This document shows, one piece after another, positions 17,293 to 60,732 of a DNA stretch of 64,000 nt (its first letter is position 1; every line of letters begins with the position of its first letter). The notes under the pieces were generated by a model, which saw only the letters and a program-made list of their open reading frames with translations, made no database searches and was not told the DNA's origin. Source of the stretch: Rhodothermales bacterium. Its GTDB lineage: Bacteria; Bacteroidota; Rhodothermia; Rhodothermales; VXPQ01. The stretch spans positions 2,587,175-2,651,174 of the forward strand of contig OX638293.1 in NCBI GenBank assembly GCA_951812335.1, in the 5' to 3' direction. The position numbers and the translations under genes are program-made.

Positions 17293-17530
17293 GGGGCAAA
17301 GATAGCGACCGAAAGACCTGGATAGCAACTCCTGCTTGTACAGAATCGATCTTCTGTATATCAATAACGAACCACCTCTCTTGCCGACAAGAAAACCGTT
17401 GCAGGCGAACCTTCTAGCATCGCCGATCAAGGCCCGACGGACGGAGTACACACCACGAGCGGATCGCCCACGCTAAAGAGCATGCTCGAGGCGAGAGGCA
17501 TTCGTATCGCCAGAAGTGGCGGACGCAATG

Positions 17531-17810
17531 GCGCCCCCGAGATCTCCGACACGAACCGGGGAGCGCAGTGTACCTCCGAGGCATCCGCAGGAGCGCTCAA
17601 TACGCACGGCGTGCGCATCTCTATGGCAAGGGCCGCTGGCCGGGCAACGTGTACGTGGAGCGCTTCTGGCGTAGTCTCAAGCAGGAAGAGGTCTACCGGC
17701 ATGCGTGCGAGGCGATAGCCGAGGCCGAGAAGGGAATTGCCCACTACTTGTGTTACGTCAACCAGGAACACCCCCGCCAGGGATTTGACAATCGACTCCC
17801 GGCGACGTAA
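17531..17810 (+). pseudogene. IS3-family transposase (OrfB/DDE) C-terminal fragment, frameshifted
   Basis: Two frames together give the end of an IS3-type rve transposase. Frame one reads PEISDTNRGAQCTSEA and THGVRISM, resembling the family pattern PEI..TDQGSQFTS...GI.ISMDGKG. At about 17625 the reading must shift to a second frame giving YGKGRWPGNVYVERFWRSLK, QEEVYRHACEAIAEAEKGI and HPRQGFDNRLPAT, the normal family C-terminus. The N-terminal two thirds and OrfA are missing, so the copy is dead. A partial sister copy is at 21231-21407, so the two flank the LRR gene. Confidence 0.85.
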
Positions 17811-21230: not shown

Positions 21231-21407
21231 GTGGGGACCGCCGAGGAGGCATTCTCCCGAAACCGCTACGGCGCCCCCGAGATCTCCGACACGAACCGGG
21301 GAGCGCAGTGTACCTCCGAGGCATCCGCAGGAGCGCTCAATACGCACGGCGTGCGCATCTCTATGGCGGCAAAAGCCGCCGGCCGGGCAACGTGTACGTG
21401 GAGCGCC
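21231..21407 (+). pseudogene. IS3-family transposase fragment, second copy
   Basis: Positions 21271-21375 are almost identical to 17531-17635 in the first fragment (PEISDTNRGAQCTSEA, then THGVRISM), preceded by EEAFSRNRYGAPEI, closer to the family pattern than in copy one. The lesion differs: here the sequence after the shared ATCTCTATGG carries extra bases (CGGCAAAAG versus CAAGGG) and the similarity stops at about 21407, right after the codons for YVER. No functional protein is possible. It lies 58 bp beyond the bshC stop. Confidence 0.85.
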
Positions 21408-52207: not shown

Positions 52208-53188
52208 ATGGCGCAAAAACTTCTCCAACAGGCAGCAATAGCCCTGCGCGATGGCGGTGTCGAGGCCCTGGAGCGAATGTTGTCTCGGTCGCCTGCCGTA
52301 CTCACCGCCAGGGACAACAACGGACGGACCCTTCTCGATCTCGCCTGCCGGGCCGCGACATGCGACATCGCGATCCCGCTGGCGCCGGGAACCCCGCAAC
52401 AACATGCCGCCATCGATCTGATCCTCAATGCGGGAGCCGATCCGGCGACCGCCGACAACGACGGGTGGACCCCACTGCATACGGCCGGTATGGCGGGGCA
52501 CGCCGATCTGGCGCGGCGGCTCGTGGAGGCCGGCGCGCCGGTGGACGTGAACGCGTACGGCATGGAGGGCGGCTCGGCCCTGTCCTATGCCCTCTTCTAC
52601 GCCAAGCCGTACATGGGCGAGGTGCTTGTCCCCGTGTACCCCGACAACCTCCGCACCGCCGCAGCCCTTGGCCACGACATAAGCCGGTTCATCGCGGTCG
52701 GCGGAGAGCTAACGCCAGCGGCCCGATACGGGTTGGACTTCTACGCCCCTGTGTTCTTCCCGTCGTGGGACCGGACGCTGGACCGGCAGGAGGTGCTTGA
52801 CGAAGCGTTGTCCTGGGCGGCGCGCAACAACCAATGCGGTTCGATCTCCGCGCTGGTCGCACTCGGCGCCAACGTGAATGCGAATCCGTTCCGCGGCACA
52901 CCGCTCCTCTGGGCCTGTTACAGCGACAAGGTGGAGGCCGCCGCCTGCCTGCTCGACCACGGCGCCGATCCGGATCTCCGGCACGACTTCGGCGGGGAGG
53001 GCCACGGCGTGCAGGCGGTCGCCATGCACCTGGCGGCGCAGCACGACGCGGTGAAGTGTCTGAATCTGTTGCTTGAGCGCGGCGCCGATCCGACTGTTAC
53101 CGACGCCGCCCACCACGCCACTCCCCTTGTGTGGGCAGAGTTCTGTGGCGCGGCCGAGGCGGCCGAGGTGCTGAAGGGGAAGGGGTAA
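52208..53188 (+). CDS. Ankyrin-repeat protein
   Basis: A 326-residue protein with no signal peptide. Ankyrin repeats are visible at about 38-95 (NNGRTLLDLACRA..., DNDGWTPLHTAGMAGHADLA, RRLVEAGAPVDVNAYG) and at about 215-320 (GSISALVALGANVNANPFRG, then ACLLDHGADPDLRHD, LLLERGADPTVTDAAHHATP). A spacer with KPYMGEVLVPVYPDNLRTA separates the two blocks. The ATG at 52208 begins a helical cap MAQKLLQQAAIALRDGG. Likely a cytoplasmic partner of, or cotranscribed with, the Fic protein. A decayed copy of its 3' end is at 54252-54323. Confidence 0.88.
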   Translation: MAQKLLQQAAIALRDGGVEALERMLSRSPAVLTARDNNGRTLLDLACRAATCDIAIPLAPGTPQQHAAIDLILNAGADPATADNDGWTPLHTAGMAGHADLARRLVEAGAPVDVNAYGMEGGSALSYALFYAKPYMGEVLVPVYPDNLRTAAALGHDISRFIAVGGELTPAARYGLDFYAPVFFPSWDRTLDRQEVLDEALSWAARNNQCGSISALVALGANVNANPFRGTPLLWACYSDKVEAAACLLDHGADPDLRHDFGGEGHGVQAVAMHLAAQHDAVKCLNLLLERGADPTVTDAAHHATPLVWAEFCGAAEAAEVLKGKG

Positions 53189-53223
53189 AAAGAGCGGTTG
53201 CCGAAGGGATGCAATTACGATAC

Positions 53224-53250
53224 TGAGTAAAATTACTCAATAGAGTAATT
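53224..53250. promoter_or_regulatory. Palindrome TGAGTAA-AA-TTACTCA with overlapping second dyad
   Basis: TGAGTAA (53224-53230) and TTACTCA (53233-53239) form one perfect palindrome; AATTACTC (53231-53238) and GAGTAATT (53243-53250) form another that overlaps it. It follows the ankyrin gene by 35 bp and precedes the convergent toxin gene end. It could be a terminator-like hairpin or protein site. Confidence 0.65.
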
Positions 53251-54182: not shown

Positions 54183-54323
54183 TGCAAAAGCAATCGCCGG
54201 TTACACTGCGCTCTGGTTATCCGTATACTTTCGGACAAGCTGGAGCAGGGTAGCATTCCCCTTGCGTGGGCAGAGTCCTGTGGTGCGACCGAGGCCGCCG
54301 AGGTGCTGAAGGGAAAGGGGTAA
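54183..54323 (+). pseudogene. Decayed duplicate: fic 3' end joined to ankyrin 3' end
   Basis: Positions 54183-54248 align without gaps to the last 66 bp of fic (52059-52124) at about 70% identity: NRRLHCALVIRILSDKLEQ against NRRFRYAPYIHIFSDEPE, with the fic stop TAG changed to CAG. Immediately after, 54252-54323 match the last codons of the ankyrin gene (PLAWAESCGATEAAEVLKGK against PLVWAEFCGAAEAAEVLKGK), including the stop. The whole middle is missing. After both stops the same TGAGTAA palindrome follows. Confidence 0.75.
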
Positions 54324-54355
54324 GGGGGGTTGTCGGAAGGATGCAATTACGCTAC

Positions 54356-54371
54356 TGAGTAAAATTACTCA
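54356..54371. promoter_or_regulatory. Second copy of the TGAGTAA-AA-TTACTCA palindrome
   Basis: Identical 16-bp palindrome to 53224-53239, located 32 bp after the decayed ankyrin copy, with the same flanking ATGCAATTACG. It was evidently duplicated with that locus. Confidence 0.65.
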
Positions 54372-54470
54372 ATAAGATAATTTACCAGGCACGCCCCACA
54401 TGGGCTTGATCGAATTGCGCGGTAGAGGGCGCGGCGCTTATTGGGTCCGGAAGGGCGGACGGTAGGTAAT

Positions 54471-54652
54471 TCGTGGGCGATTCGTAGGCGATTCGTAGAC
54501 GATTCGTAGGCGATTCGTAGGCGATTCGTAGGCGGATTCGTGGGCGGAGCGTAGACGATTCGTAGGCGATTCGTAGGCGATTCGTAGGCGGATTCGTGGG
54601 CGGAGCGTAGGCGGAGCGTAGGCGATTCGTAGGCGGAGCGTAGACGATTCGT
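54471..54652. repeat. 11-bp minisatellite
   Basis: About sixteen tandem copies of an 11-bp unit GGCGATTCGTA, with variants GGCGGAGCGTA and GACGATTCGTA and some 12-bp units. Open frames across it (repeats of ESPTNRLR type) exist in several frames because 11 is not a multiple of three, so coding is unlikely. Replication-slippage prone. Confidence 0.85.
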
Positions 54653-54697
54653 ACCCTGCTGACCAAGCAAATAGCTCAACCCCATCCCTCAAAAACA

Positions 54698-54737
54698 CAA
54701 TTACCCCATTGAGTGAAATCACTCAATGGGGTAATTG
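54698..54737. promoter_or_regulatory. Perfect 19-bp palindrome with TGAGTGA core
   Basis: The arms 54698-54716 and 54719-54737 are exact reverse complements around AA. The centre TGAGTGA-AA-TCACTCA is a variant of the palindromes at 53224 and 54356, extended outward by CAATTACCCCAT. It lies 41 bp beyond the stop of the lipoprotein gene (minus strand), so a terminator or mobile-element end is possible. Confidence 0.7.
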
Positions 54738-54778: not shown

Positions 54779-55162
54779 CTAATGCACCCGTATAGCCAGC
54801 GCCTGACCGCGGCGACCGGACTCGTTATAGCCGGTGACAGGATCGCCGGACACTCTGATTTCTCCACCCAGATCCGTCTGGCCCAGCAATACGACGCCGT
54901 TCGCTCCGAGGGCGCCCGCCGCCTCGCGCAGCTTTCCGATCAACTTGCTCTCCGTGGTGATGTTTTCGAAGGTCTTGCCGTAAAGCAGCGCAACACGCGT
55001 GTGCTCTGGCAGTTCGTCCCGCTCAAAGAATATCTGCACCTCGGCCCCCGGCACCGGAGCATACCCCGGTCCTGTGTCGAGCATGGTATGGTTTATGCTG
55101 ACGCAGCCGGAAACCAGTGCAGCGAGCGCGAAGAAAAGGGGAATGCTTGCGTAGGGTTTCAT
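54779..55162 (-). CDS. Small lipoprotein of unknown function
   Basis: A 127-residue lipoprotein with lipobox LVSGC (Cys20). The mature part is a small alpha/beta domain with VQIFFERDELPEHTRVALLY, KLIGKLREAAGALGANGVVL and a C-terminal QALAIRVH. This layout (a beta strand, then a helix followed by LGANGVVLL) resembles the YbjQ/DUF4156-like lipoprotein folds, but no firm assignment can be made. It has its own 400-bp upstream non-coding region. Confidence 0.8.
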   Translation of the reverse strand: MKPYASIPLFFALAALVSGCVSINHTMLDTGPGYAPVPGAEVQIFFERDELPEHTRVALLYGKTFENITTESKLIGKLREAAGALGANGVVLLGQTDLGGEIRVSGDPVTGYNESGRRGQALAIRVH

Positions 55163-55577
55163 ATTGTTACCTCCGTGGCGATGTCCATGAACCGTTTATT
55201 CCGGCCCGCCGATTACATCTCTTTTCCGATACGACCCGTGCATCGGAATATACCGAACGGCCTTGCTTACTGTATCATGATTCTTAGACAATATCCGTGC
55301 CAAATACCAGAATTATCCGTCGTCCCCGGTTTCTCTCGACCGGAATATCCATCGTCGCCGAACACGCACAGCAAGCCAGCACCAGCGCCGTGGACACGCA
55401 GCGGTACACTGCAATCCCCGGTGCAAAATATCTCTTGCACAGCGTTTCAGGCGCAGGGGAGCGCTTCATGTTTACATTCCCGATTACCCTTCGAACACAT
55501 CGTCCATCATCGTCTGCAATTCGTGCATCACGGCATCCCCGGCTCTATAGTGGAGGACGCGACGCGATCTCTTCCAT
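55163..55577. other. Intergenic region, no gene recognised
   Basis: Upstream of the small lipoprotein gene and downstream of hmuY. Short open frames in several phases show no protein character. The sequence ACGGCCTTGCTTACTGTATCATGATT near 55259 may hold a promoter for the lipoprotein gene, but no clear consensus is seen. Confidence 0.5.
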
Positions 55578-56288
55578 TCATTCCGAGGTCAGGTCCCGCG
55601 AGCCGTCGGGCCGGAGGACATACTCGAACGTATAATATCGCGACGGAACCGATGCGTCGGGGGGATCCGGATTGTTTTGGTAATAACTCATAATCCGCAT
55701 TTTCGCGTAGTTGCCACTCGCTGTCTTGAGCACGATCGTGCGGCCCGGGATCGGCAAGAGCAGCATGGTCCCGGCATTATAGCTGTACCAGCCGTTGTCC
55801 GAGCCCGTGCAGATCGCATAGGGCGAGCCCGGAACGGGACCGACGGGCGTGGAGACCTCCGGGCAGGATGTGTTCTCTCCGTCGGCAATATAGCCCCCCT
55901 CGGGCGCTTCGACGACCTCGGCAAAGGGTTGCGCAAGCATCTGCGCCGCCGCTTCGCCCGGCCCGCTCGTACCCCCGTTGAAAATGATCGTCGTGCCTTT
56001 GAAACCGATGTCCCACGCGGTCGATGTGGAATCGCGCTGCCGGGTGGCGGCATCCGTCTGAGACGAAGAAATAAGTATCGAACCCGCCTCGAGATCGTAG
56101 AGCGTGAAGAGGTTGTTGCTGATAGAGGCCCCCGTGTCCGGGTCGCGTCCCGAAGCCGGATCAGCCGGGACATTCCCGGCTATTCGCACATTGAGGACCA
56201 CCGGCTCCGGCTCGGCATCCGTGCTGTCGCAGCCGGTAAGCAGAAGAACGAACCCGAAGAATATGGAAAAAGCAACGGGTGTTTTCAT
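55578..56288 (-). CDS. hmuY: HmuY-family haem-binding lipoprotein
   Basis: A 236-residue lipoprotein (lipobox LLTGC, Cys20 from the ATG at 56288). The mature part has the HmuY features: NLFTLYDLEAGSILISSSQ, DSTSTAWDIGFKGTTIIFNG (WDI.F....I..NGG is the family hallmark) and the C-terminal MRIMSYYQNNPDPPD...YYTFEY. HmuY captures haem and passes it to a TonB receptor. It follows the haem-type receptor gene on the same strand; a MITE-like element sits between the two genes. Confidence 0.92.
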   Translation of the reverse strand: MKTPVAFSIFFGFVLLLTGCDSTDAEPEPVVLNVRIAGNVPADPASGRDPDTGASISNNLFTLYDLEAGSILISSSQTDAATRQRDSTSTAWDIGFKGTTIIFNGGTSGPGEAAAQMLAQPFAEVVEAPEGGYIADGENTSCPEVSTPVGPVPGSPYAICTGSDNGWYSYNAGTMLLLPIPGRTIVLKTASGNYAKMRIMSYYQNNPDPPDASVPSRYYTFEYVLRPDGSRDLTSE

Positions 56289-56330
56289 GGTACGTACGGG
56301 TTGGAATTTCAGGGTTGGTAGTATCCTATA

Positions 56331-56665
56331 GGATACTCTGATTAAGTCCGCAAAACTCAGAGGCTGAAAGGGGTGGGCTGGCAAGGAATGACGAAGCAGT
56401 GTGGCAGGCCCCACACAATAAGGAATGACGCAGCCAGCGTGCCCCTTTCAGCCTCCCGAAGGGCGCGTCACGGCCGCCATGACCCGAATCCGCAGCGTTT
56501 CCCGCTAATTCCGACGATGCAATTATGGTATCCTTATACGCACGAACGTGAAGCGCCGGTCGAAGCGGTTTCGATCAGAGTATCCTTAATTCCGACGATG
56601 AAACCATGACATCCCGTACGCACGAACGTGACGCGCTGAGCGAAGTGGTTTTGATCAGAGTATCC
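56331..56665 (+). mobile_element. MITE-like element, copy B with duplicated right end
   Basis: A 335-bp copy flanked by TATA on both sides (56327-56330, 56666-56669). Left end GGATACTCTGATTAAG, right end TTTTGATCAGAGTATCC. The stem arms are 56361-56382 and 56433-56454 and the apical hairpin is GTGTGG...CCACAC. The final about 80 bp (from ATTCCGACGATG through ATCAGAGTATCC) is present twice in tandem, which explains the extra length. Its last base supplies the G of the TAG stop codon of the receptor gene. Confidence 0.85.
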
Positions 56666-58803
56666 TATAGCATGATGCGGAGAGCGACGTAAAGCCGGCG
56701 ACCGGGAAGCGACGGCACAAGAGCCGGGCGCGTAATATCGAGAACATTGTCCACGCCAAGCTGGATTTCGGCGTCAGCCGGACCCAAAGCCGGGACCGCC
56801 TTGGTAACGGTTGCATCGAAAACGGCATAGGCCGGGACGAACTCGTCGTCGCGATTGGCCAGCGCGTTGCCGTCGAGATCGCGGTAGCCGTAGCGGCTGC
56901 GCCAGCGTCCCCGAACACTGGCGGTGAGACCGAACGGCGTGTGTGCATACACAGCACGGAGTGTCGCCGTATGAGGCGAGCGCCCGAACATTCCGCCATA
57001 GTCGCCCGGACCGAGACGGTACTCCCGCCCGGACGGATCGCGTCCGAACACGGTACCGGTTTCCAGCGCTTCGACAACCTCACGGTCACGCGCCTGGAGA
57101 AACTGATAGCCTAAGGAAAGATCGAGCCGGTTCCGTTGCTCTGCGATCGCCCGGATGGTCGCATCCGCCTCGAGGCCCCGCGTGTAAATCCGCGCAAGGT
57201 TGAAATAGCCGAAAACGAACTGTCCGTTTGTCTTTCGTGCGATCGGCTGGGTCTCAATGAGATCGTGAACGTTGTTGTGGAAAGCATTGGCCGAAAAAGC
57301 TAGCCGGGGAAACGGCTCGATCGAACCCCCGATGTTGACCGCAACGGAACTTTCGGCGCGGATCTCCTCGAGCGTGGCAGGATTGATAAAGAGACGAACG
57401 ATCGCTCCCTCTGCTTGTAGCCGCGCGACCCCTTCCTGCAGCCGGGTTGCGCCAAAGACGGAGTACCCCGCCGCGGCGTTGGTGAAAGCAAGGTAAAATT
57501 GCCGGAAGGCAGGCGCCTTGAAGCCGCTGCCTGCACTTACCCGAAAGCGCAGGTTGTCCGCTGGACGAACAAGAAGAGCGATTTTCGGGGTCAGCCGCGC
57601 AGCGTAATCGGAATGGGCGTCGAAGCGGGCGCTCGCACTCACCTCGACCAGGCGCAACGGAAGCCATTCATGTTGGGCAAAGGCATAGGCCTGATTCGCC
57701 GCCGGACGTTCGCCGGCGGCATCCGTTCCGTAGCGGTCGCCGCCCAGACGCTCACGCACCGCGCCCCCGCCCAGGCTTGTGAGATGACGCCGGTTCCAAA
57801 GCGCGTCGAGTTGGGCCTCGGCCTTCAGGTAGTACTGGCCAAAATCGTCCTCATAGGTGAGCACGCCGTCGCTCTGGCGGCGGTAACGGGTCTCGGTCCG
57901 GTAACGCGCCCCGTAGACCGTCGTCGTGAGGCGAAAACGATCGGAGAGTCGAATTCGGGCTTCCGGATGCAGAGTCCAGTCGACGCGGCGTCCATCGTCG
58001 TCGTAGCGCACTTCGACGCCATCGGCCCTCAAAGCGAATGTGCTTTCCTGATCTTCTACGGTTGCCCGGGCGCCGAGTCGGAGCAAAACGCGATCCGAAA
58101 GGGCAAGGCGGCTGCGCCAATCGGCCGTCCAGTCGGTGAAAGCAGGGCTGGTGGCCCCGAACGATGCAGGTGTCAGGTCGTAGCCCGCCGAGGCATAGCG
58201 GTTGAAAAGCAGGCGCGCACCCGCCCGCTCGCGTCCGGCTTCGACTTCGGTCGTAAGGTCCGTCGTACCGAACGAACCGAACCGGGCGCCAAGAGCGCTG
58301 CGAAAACCTTCGGTCGCAGGCGCCGTGATAAGATTGACGACGCCCGCAAGCGCTTCGCTTCCATAGAGCGACGACGATGGGCCGCGCACGATTTCGACGC
58401 GATCCAGACCCTGCACGGTCAACCGGTTCAGGTCGAGGGTGCCCGCCGTTCGCCCGATGACAGGTTCGCCGTCAAGAAGGATAAGCGTGTAATCCGGCGC
58501 AAAACCCTGCACCTGCAACCCTGTCCCATGATCGTCGAACAGGGTAAGACCGGGAACCGTTAAAAGAACATCGGCCAACCGCACAGCCCCCTGCATCCGC
58601 ATGGTCTCGGCCAGAACGACTGTAGTCGGCACAGCCACATCCTCAAGCGCCTTCTCCGAGCGCGTCGCCGTCACAACGACAGGGGCCATCTCGATGACGC
58701 GAGACGAATCCGCTTTCACAGAATCGGCTGGGACATGCTGAGCGCGCGCCGTCACCGAAGGAATCGCTACGACGAACGCCAAAAACAGGTGGAGCAGCCT
58801 CAT
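56665..58803 (-). CDS. TonB-dependent haem-type outer-membrane receptor
   Basis: A 712-residue receptor with signal peptide (MRLLHLFLAFVVAIPSVTARAQ), TonB box-like VVVTATRSEKALEDVAVPTT, plug domain (LADVLLTVPGLTLFDDHGTG, VEIVRGPSSSLYGSEALAGV) and a 22-strand barrel. Such HmuR/BtuB-type receptors pair with HmuY. The last residues are ALRIML: the usual terminal aromatic residue is absent, and the TAG stop lies at the boundary of the inserted MITE-like element, so the natural terminus may have been altered. Regulated through the palindrome 31 bp upstream, probably by iron. Confidence 0.9.
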   Translation of the reverse strand: MRLLHLFLAFVVAIPSVTARAQHVPADSVKADSSRVIEMAPVVVTATRSEKALEDVAVPTTVVLAETMRMQGAVRLADVLLTVPGLTLFDDHGTGLQVQGFAPDYTLILLDGEPVIGRTAGTLDLNRLTVQGLDRVEIVRGPSSSLYGSEALAGVVNLITAPATEGFRSALGARFGSFGTTDLTTEVEAGRERAGARLLFNRYASAGYDLTPASFGATSPAFTDWTADWRSRLALSDRVLLRLGARATVEDQESTFALRADGVEVRYDDDGRRVDWTLHPEARIRLSDRFRLTTTVYGARYRTETRYRRQSDGVLTYEDDFGQYYLKAEAQLDALWNRRHLTSLGGGAVRERLGGDRYGTDAAGERPAANQAYAFAQHEWLPLRLVEVSASARFDAHSDYAARLTPKIALLVRPADNLRFRVSAGSGFKAPAFRQFYLAFTNAAAGYSVFGATRLQEGVARLQAEGAIVRLFINPATLEEIRAESSVAVNIGGSIEPFPRLAFSANAFHNNVHDLIETQPIARKTNGQFVFGYFNLARIYTRGLEADATIRAIAEQRNRLDLSLGYQFLQARDREVVEALETGTVFGRDPSGREYRLGPGDYGGMFGRSPHTATLRAVYAHTPFGLTASVRGRWRSRYGYRDLDGNALANRDDEFVPAYAVFDATVTKAVPALGPADAEIQLGVDNVLDITRPALVPSLPGRRLYVALRIML

Positions 58804-58833
58804 GGAAGGAAGATTCGACGGTAATACTTTATA

Positions 58834-58850
58834 TTTAGACTGAATCTAAA
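58834..58850. promoter_or_regulatory. Palindromic metal-regulator-like operator
   Basis: TTTAGA (58834-58839) and TCTAAA (58845-58850) are perfect arms with spacer CTGAA, 31 bp upstream of the receptor start. It resembles Fur/DtxR-type sites in size and AT content. Its placement before a haem receptor suggests iron control; the binding protein is inferred. Confidence 0.6.
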
Positions 58851-59016
58851 TTAGGATCCGGTATATTTTCATGGATTTATTATGAAAAGCCTTCGGCTGG
58901 CGGATGCGGAGGATGTGCAACGACAGTAAGGTGGGGGATCCCGGCTTTACGAACGACCGGGGACACCTCGTTACAGAGATTTGGAAACACCTTCAATGTT
59001 TGCGGAAAAACATAAG

Positions 59017-59270
59017 GGATGCTCTGATTAAATCCGCAAAGATTCAGAGGCTGAAAAGGGTGCGCTGGCAAGGAATGACGAAGCAATGTGGCAGGCCCCA
59101 CATAATGAGGAATGACACGGCCAGCGTGCCCCTCTCTGCCTCCCGAAGGGCGCTTCACGTTCGCAAGTACAGGATATCATGATTTTATCATCGGAATCAG
59201 CGGGAAATATGCGAATTCGGGGCGTTGCGAACGTGAAGCGCTGAACGAAGTGGTTTTGATCAGAGTATCC
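59017..59270 (+). mobile_element. MITE-like element, copy C
   Basis: A 254-bp copy: left end GGATGCTCTGATTAAA, right end TTTTGATCAGAGTATCC, flanked by TAA (59013-59015, 59272-59274) if one extra G/C pair is counted as element. Stem arms 59048-59069 and 59120-59141 pair less well than in copies A and B. The apical hairpin ATGTGG...CCACAT is intact. The region on either side (58860-59373) holds no other gene. Confidence 0.85.
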
Positions 59271-59373
59271 CTAAAGGTGCAGATGTGCGCGCCAGACCCT
59301 GCAATGCCACATTGTCAACATCCGTGGCATCGGCCACCCCGTACGCTACGGAGTCAACCGCTCTACGCCACGC

Positions 59374-60732
59374 TCAACCACCAAACAGATTCTCCTGTAC
59401 AAAAGCGTTGCGGAATTTGCCGTCCGGGTCGTATCCCTGAAGCAACTCCCTGAAGGCGGCTGCTTTTTCGTACCGCGATTGCAACCGGTCCGGCGCCATC
59501 GTAAACAGTTTTCCCCAATGCGGACGCGCTTCAAAGGGTTCGAGCGCCTCTTCGATCTCGGGAAGCAGTTGCCGGAGCGCATCCCAGTCCTGCTCCCAGG
59601 TGCAGTGAAAAGCGACGCTGGGCCGGTCGAAACACATACTCATCCACAGATCGTCCCGATCGATGGTGCGCACCTCCGAGATCATCAGGAGCGAACCGAA
59701 ACGCTCGCCCATCCCCTGAAAAATTCTTGCCACCTCTCTCGCGTGTTCCCGCGCGACAAAGTATTCGCTTTGCAATTCCTTGCCGCTGCTCGGAGTAAAG
59801 TCCATGCGGAAATGCGGCAGTCGCTCGTACCAGGGGCCGGGCACGCCCATCTGCTCCGTGCAGTTCACCGCCGAGAGTTCCAGAATCGGATGCACATTCC
59901 TTGTCGCCAGGTTGGCGCCGAAAAACGTGGGTTCCGCCTCGAATGCATCGTCCCCCGCTACCCGCTTGATCCAGACCTGATTGACCGCGTCCGTCCAGTC
60001 CGTGAACAGGCTGACGCTGTAGCCGCTCGACATGATTTCATCGAAATGTTCGTCCAGCGAGGCCACCGGAAGATCCAGATAGACATGCTGGATCATGTCG
60101 AAATCGGGCTGGAGATCCAGCGTAACCTCCGTAACCACGCCGAGTCCGCCAAGGCCCACGACCGCTCCGGCGAATCGTTCGCCGTCCTCCTCGCGGGAAA
60201 GGGTGACCAGATCGCCGTTCGCATCGATGAACGTGATCGCGGCCACCGCCGTGGCCAGATTCCCGTTCGCCACGCCCGAACCGTGGGTGGCCGTCGCGCA
60301 AGCGCCCGCCACGGAGATATGCGGCAGAGAAGCCAGATTGTGCAAGGCATACCCTCTCTCCTGGAGGTACGGAGCAAGATCGCCGTAGCGCATACCGGCC
60401 CCTACCGTCACCCTGTTCGCCGCCTCGTCGAGATGCACCACCTGGTTGAGATGCTCAAGGGATATCTGCGCCTCGGTGCTGTCGGCAATGGCGTTGAAGC
60501 AATGGCGCGAGCCGAGCGGCCGGATCCTGGGCGTATTCCTCACGAGGTCCTGCGCCTCGGCGACCGTTTGCGGCAAATGCAACCGGTCCGTAGAGTAGGT
60601 AAGATTCCCCGCCCAATTCGTCCGGGGGGGCGGAAGGGTAGTGACTTCTTCAGGCCTGCAGGAGGCCAGCGGAGAAAGGATACCGCCCGCCATCAGGGCG
60701 GAGCATGTCTTCAGGAAGGTTCGCTTATCCAT
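59374..60732 (-). CDS. FAD-linked alditol/aldonolactone oxidase-like protein
   Basis: A 452-residue VAO-family flavoprotein. The N-terminus has a Tat-like or lipoprotein leader (KRTFLKTCSALMAGG, then ASC). The FAD domain shows IRPLGSRHCFNAIADS, where the His is the likely covalent flavin site as in alditol oxidases, VTVGAGMRYGDLAPYLQERG, and CATATHGSG. The C-terminal ALO domain ends HWGKLFTM...YDPDGKFRNAFV. Alditol oxidase (AldO/xylitol oxidase) is the best match; L-gulono-1,4-lactone oxidase is an alternative. Confidence 0.9.
   Translation of the reverse strand: MDKRTFLKTCSALMAGGILSPLASCRPEEVTTLPPPRTNWAGNLTYSTDRLHLPQTVAEAQDLVRNTPRIRPLGSRHCFNAIADSTEAQISLEHLNQVVHLDEAANRVTVGAGMRYGDLAPYLQERGYALHNLASLPHISVAGACATATHGSGVANGNLATAVAAITFIDANGDLVTLSREEDGERFAGAVVGLGGLGVVTEVTLDLQPDFDMIQHVYLDLPVASLDEHFDEIMSSGYSVSLFTDWTDAVNQVWIKRVAGDDAFEAEPTFFGANLATRNVHPILELSAVNCTEQMGVPGPWYERLPHFRMDFTPSSGKELQSEYFVAREHAREVARIFQGMGERFGSLLMISEVRTIDRDDLWMSMCFDRPSVAFHCTWEQDWDALRQLLPEIEEALEPFEARPHWGKLFTMAPDRLQSRYEKAAAFRELLQGYDPDGKFRNAFVQENLFGG

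Follow-up and report, generated by a model that had tools for sequence, protein, structure and literature searches.

A MITE of very probable IS5-family origin at the stop codon of a TonB-dependent receptor gene in a Rhodothermales genome

The receptor-hmuY locus and the structure of copy B

In the window, i.e., the whole stretch of 64,000 nucleotides that was analysed, a gene for a TonB-dependent receptor is followed on the same strand by a gene for a HmuY-family lipoprotein-like protein, which starts 376 nt past the receptor stop codon. Between them lies copy B, a long form of a MITE of which other copies are present in the window as well. The features are listed in Table 1.

Table 1. Features of the receptor-hmuY locus and further copies of the MITE family in the window
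Feature	Start	End	Strand	Remarks
Copy A, full-length	20962	21214	+	
Deletion derivative, 62 nt from TIR to TIR	48711	48772	-	
HmuY-family lipoprotein-like gene	55578	56288	-	ATG at 56288; PF14064, E 1.7e-10
Left TATA, copy of the 4-bp target duplication	56327	56330		Read directly from the sequence
MITE copy B, 335-nt long form	56331	56665	+	254-nt body plus second right end
Left terminal inverted repeat (TIR), GGATACTCTGATTAA	56331	56345	+	
Internal hairpin 1 (GAGGCTGAAAGGGG...CCCCTTTCAGCCTC)	56360	56455	+	From fold and consensus structure
Internal hairpin 2 domain (consensus ~131-232)	56461	56562	+	Loop of this segment inverted in the copy C subfamily
First right end, with inner TIR end GATCAGAGTATCC	56506	56585	+	
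Tandem second right end, outer, beside the target duplication	56586	56665	+	83% identical to the first (gapped alignment)
Right TATA, copy of the 4-bp target duplication	56666	56669		56666-56667 belong to the receptor stop codon
TonB-dependent receptor (Plug + barrel), 712 aa, ending ALRIML	56665	58803	-	PF00593, 4.7e-31; PF07715, 3.4e-20
Copy C, member of the flipped-loop subfamily	59017	59270	+	

Copy B starts with GGATAC at 56331 and ends with GTATCC at 56665, as read directly from the sequence. The receptor gene ends, on the minus strand, with ATC-ATG-CTA-TAG. The TA of this stop codon (positions 56667-56666 of the TAG at 56667-56665) belongs to the target copy, and its G, at 56665, is the first base of copy B on that strand. 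An earlier note on this DNA had described the TATA on both sides of the element (56327-56330 and 56666-56669) as well as this composite stop codon, and direct coordinates confirm the two descriptions. Its claim that a mobile element inserted at the receptor stop codon also holds; the site is empty in G001, G002 and G003. The same kind of stop is found elsewhere: at least two further copies build TAG from TA and the G of the element as copy B does (L023, with 381 open codons, and L090, with 337). A coding-potential scan of insertion sites, which flagged 10 of 178 sides, is too insensitive for generalising on insertion at stop codons.

The family consensus folds into a terminal-repeat stem around two long hairpins, and copy B itself folds far better than shuffled sequences (z -5.7 for one strand and -6.9 for the other). 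Its doubled right end is common to five other copies (L002, L003, L004, L006 and L008). Another variant is formed by six copies (copy C, L065, L082, L093, L170 and L191) that share an inverted loop of hairpin 2. Because their pairwise identity outside the loop is 97-100%, something appears to have mobilised them recently, which argues for a recent movement or burst of this subfamily, though no intact transposase was found. Repeated flip-flop of the loop was considered and rejected, since the flipped copies form one recent subfamily for which a single inversion suffices. Copy C is absent from the sister genomes G001, G002 and G003, of which G001 and G002 may hold a short end remnant.

The MITE family and its target duplication

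The family has a consensus of approximately 254 nt with a 15-nt TIR, and its full-length copies are on average 88% identical to this consensus. Allowing at most one mismatch, the 15-nt TIR occurs 152 and 163 times in the genome in its two orientations, with none for the reversed control; allowing at most three, there are 241 and 262 occurrences, against 2 and 4 for the control. Roughly 250 copies, fragments included, are thus present in this 2.69-Mb genome. A whole-genome search for the family gave 277 first-look candidates, and all 40 that were scored were matches. Each of the six genus genomes carries the family, and 54 further genomes from the order gave no match; the named relatives are Rhodothermales MAGs. 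Deletion derivatives of 37-188 nt have kept both ends and lost the middle, and tandem or abutting copies occur as well (L061, L085 and L069). Altogether, these are short non-coding elements with TIRs and a target-site duplication, dispersed in many copies, as is characteristic of MITEs. Viral carriage was rejected, as a search of IMG/VR with a 21-nt element end did not find it. In the literature searched, no paper treats MITEs together with Rhodothermales, and this IS5-derived MITE family, while of a known kind, is apparently new and undescribed.

As TATA is self-complementary, copy B alone cannot separate a direct from an inverted flank. The flanks of 83 full copies with clean ends were therefore compared with an expectation from shuffled pairings (500 shuffles). 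The four nucleotides on the left are exactly equal to the four on the right in 23 of the 83 copies (28%), where 5.3 were expected and the shuffle maximum was 11. Agreement between the flanking tetramers is 0.64-0.72 at each of the four positions, and among these copies there is no excess of flank identity at 3 or at 5-6 nt. Empty sites point the same way: at the L076 site, CATG stands on both sides of the element here and only once in G003 and G005, and at the L088 site, the second CAAG is missing at five sister loci. The duplication length is 4 bp. An idea based on the first 30 copies, that the flanks are inverted, was dropped, as the main signal in the 83 copies is a direct duplication of 4 bp, the tetramers being palindromic in part. 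Because other copies and empty sites settle the matter, the flank of copy B is read as a 4-bp direct duplication too, in agreement with the earlier note, which had taken TATA as the target duplication. The empty sites corresponding to copy B read CTATAA or CTATGA in sister genomes, and from such sequences we infer the exact ancestral tetramer at this site. The L076 site has a further variant in G004, where a solo left end (L101) apparently arose when the sequence between two TCAGAGG motifs, one within the element and the other in its flank, was deleted.

Outside the left TATA of copy B stands GTATCC, which gives rise to an 18-nt perfect palindrome, AGTATCCTATAGGATACT, composed of AGTATCC, TATA and GGATACT. 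The palindrome, with its AGTATCC stub at 56320-56330, is absent from the sisters. It raises the alternative that the flanking TATA and the stub are left over from another copy that abutted copy B, or that copy B inserted into an existing palindrome, in either case with no target duplication. The perfect symmetry of the left flank is in line with this, as are the tandem and abutting copies elsewhere and the perfect inverted repeats of 8-11 nt beyond the TIR that flank L011, L012 and L013, i.e., only 3 of the 83 copies, with approximately 0.06 expected. However, the direct duplication is found population-wide and at empty sites, and template switching at the palindrome could equally make the stub; we consider the alternative unlikely. 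During replication, template switching homogenises the arms of inverted repeats and inverts spacers (PMC8604942). It would account for both the inverted loop of hairpin 2 and the three inverted flanks, for which such homogenisation is a possible origin. Perhaps it is also behind the GGATACT stub, which a lost abutting copy would explain equally well. The flank arms of L011 are missing at the empty sites of four sisters and present in G004.

Transposase relics and the origin of copy B

A search of the genus with Pfam DDE_Tnp_1 identified three loci in G004 near the terminal repeat of the MITE. At one of these, L154, both TIR ends lie 666 nt apart around a fused remnant of N- and C-terminal transposase parts. 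The G004 fragments match the IS5-family model NF033581 (E 5.2e-40), PF01609 (1.2e-22) and the N-terminal DUF772. Because they are incomplete, they score just under the NCBIfam cut-off. The genome of the window has a decayed transposase relic at 2685034. An intact transposase flanked by these ends did not turn up in this genome, nor did the genus searches find an intact autonomous copy. L148, the sole PF01609 match in this genome, was rejected as autonomous parent, as its TIRs are different. The best reading is that the parent source has been lost or lies beyond the searches made.

The copy number, the hairpins and the presence of TA in most target tetramers would also suit a REP/REPIN hairpin that depends on a Y1 transposase (RAYT) for its movement, or a TA-targeting MITE of the IS630/Tc1 type. 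Neither origin is credible. PF01797 (Y1_Tnp, RAYT) and PF13358 (DDE_3, IS630-type) are both absent from all six genus genomes, the duplication is 4 bp and not 0 or 2, and relics of IS5 type carry the same ends. A RAYT/REP origin was rejected on the absence of the Y1 transposase, and an IS630-like duplication of TA only on the 4-bp result together with the absence of PF13358.

Very probably, then, copy B is a non-autonomous MITE that descends from an insertion sequence of the IS5 family, was mobilised in trans and inserted with a 4-bp duplication, restoring the receptor stop and showing no evidence of a selected function. Against this reading count the lack of an intact transposase in this genome, the small share of copies (28%) with an exact duplication and target tetramers that do not all conform to YTAR. 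An IS5-type DDE transposase would have acted in trans on the GGATACTCTGATTAA terminal repeats. A 4-bp staggered cut at the receptor gene end, in a sequence such as CTATAA or one resembling it, would then have led to the doubling of TATA. Because the element starts with G, the junction TA/GG restores the stop at the same codon, and the interval to hmuY is widened by a 335-nt structured insert.

The target tetramer of the IS5 group is YTAR, on which a search of the literature gave nothing relevant. TTAA (8 of the 23 exact duplications) and CTAA (1 of 23) fit this pattern, and TTTA, TAAA, TATA, CATG and CAAG do not. The family thus resembles the IS5 family (NF033581, transpos_IS5_4) in that its TIR also encloses transposase fragments in G004, in its 4-bp duplication and in the frequency of TTAA and CTAA among its targets, but the element in the window has no transposase, only relics are present and the target tetramers are looser than YTAR. 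With bacterial MITEs such as Correia, ERIC, Chunjie and QMITE (reviewed in PMC10969869), it shares a short, non-coding, TIR-bounded and target-duplicating organisation, size variants arising from internal deletion, and tens to hundreds of copies, although its sequence differs and it is restricted here to one Rhodothermales genus. BrickBuilt of Porphyromonas gingivalis is likewise a MITE with IS5-like TIRs from the wider Bacteroidota, but has approximately 19 copies, carries a minisatellite and has an unrelated TIR, GAGACC... (PMC4596501). REP/REPIN palindromes, mobilised by RAYT, are high-copy, palindromic and extragenic too; they need a Y1 transposase, whereas the ends of the present element are of DDE type and its duplication measures 4 bp. 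The likely parent is reduced to relics, and approximately 250 copies of the family are present in a compact genome. The filled and empty orthologous sites in six species provide a natural experiment on the decay of hairpin elements and the reshaping of their flanks.

Receptor C-terminus and the receptor-hmuY interval

The receptor gene was detected in the sister genomes G001, G002 and G003, and a search for it in G004 and G005 gave no match. According to its translation, the receptor in the window ends ...YVALRIML. The earlier note had attributed the lack of a C-terminal aromatic residue to the insertion, and had suggested comparing the C-terminus with that of relatives lacking the element. 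This comparison contradicts the proposal, its outcome being the one that the note itself had named as refuting: all three receptor-bearing sisters are without copy B and end LRLTL, with the stop (TAA, TGA and TGA, respectively) at the same codon as in the window. More distant receptors, from Rubrivirga and a related bacterium (64-65% identity), end LSF. Since the three element-free sisters already end LRLTL, the terminal aromatic residue (Phe) was lost in this genus before, and independently of, the insertion of copy B. An insertion that truncated or changed the C-terminus, removing an aromatic residue needed for barrel assembly, might be suspected from the partly element-built stop codon and the terminal Leu of the receptor, but is refuted by the shared end of the sister proteins. 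To judge from the orthologues, only the identity of the stop codon was altered, with receptor length and terminal residue kept, and the insertion was presumably near-neutral on the receptor side. The orthologues thereby correct a tempting but false inference, i.e., that the element caused the loss of the barrel signal. With G as its first base and TA frequent in its target tetramers, the element can insert at stop codons and leave the protein unchanged, which may be part of the reason why so many copies are tolerated in a small genome.

On the hmuY side, the earlier note was right that copy B separates the two genes: the gap between receptor stop and hmuY is 38, 38 and 34 nt in G001, G002 and G003, respectively, compared to 376 nt with copy B. 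It had further suggested that the element may act as a terminator, processing site or attenuator. On a broader reading, selection would have kept copy B as a regulator within the receptor-hmuY transcript, its long hairpins acting as terminator, attenuator or site of RNase III/E processing, so that hmuY is expressed less than the receptor. Besides the enlarged gap, this is suggested by the fold of the transcribed strand, at -146.8 kcal/mol vs -117.9 in shuffles (z -5.7). MITEs inside transcripts elsewhere undergo RNase processing, as is known for transcripts carrying Correia or ERIC elements (PMC10969869). However, copy B contains no terminator-like site (a G+C-rich hairpin followed by a T run) and no promoter-like site, the terminator scan gave one weak site outside copy B at chance rate, and Rfam has no match up to E 1 across 55000-60000. 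Its position is not conserved either, as no sister shares it. The same structure is scattered over approximately 250 unrelated places and therefore reflects the element and not the receptor-hmuY operon. A selected regulatory role is quite unlikely on these grounds, and a terminator or known structured RNA was rejected. RNase processing may occur, but nothing points to selection for it at this place. Still less likely, in our view, is that copies at gene ends were co-opted as 3′-UTR structures that contribute a stop codon together with a double-stranded site for processing, which in this species only would uncouple the expression of receptor and hmuY.

Other differences and repeats were observed nearby. 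In G001 (L047) and G002 (L048), hmuY is separated from the next conserved gene by approximately 750 additional nt, which the window lacks at 55462-55560; the segment apparently codes for a small protein that is lipoprotein-like and perhaps cupredoxin-like. Three places within 1.5 kb (53190-53250, 54322-54382 and 54676-54736) hold another short repeat, a hairpin with TGAGTAAAATTACTCA, which is possibly a further small family of repeats. At 54457-54668, there is a tandem array of the 11-nt unit GATTCGTAGGC and its variants. The 3′ end of an ankyrin-repeat-like gene is doubled, at 53119-53188 and 54254-54323 (90% identity over 70 nt, 1.1 kb apart). Lastly, near copy A, a 104-nt repeat is present at 17524-17627 and 21264-21367, with 98% identity over a distance of 3.7 kb.
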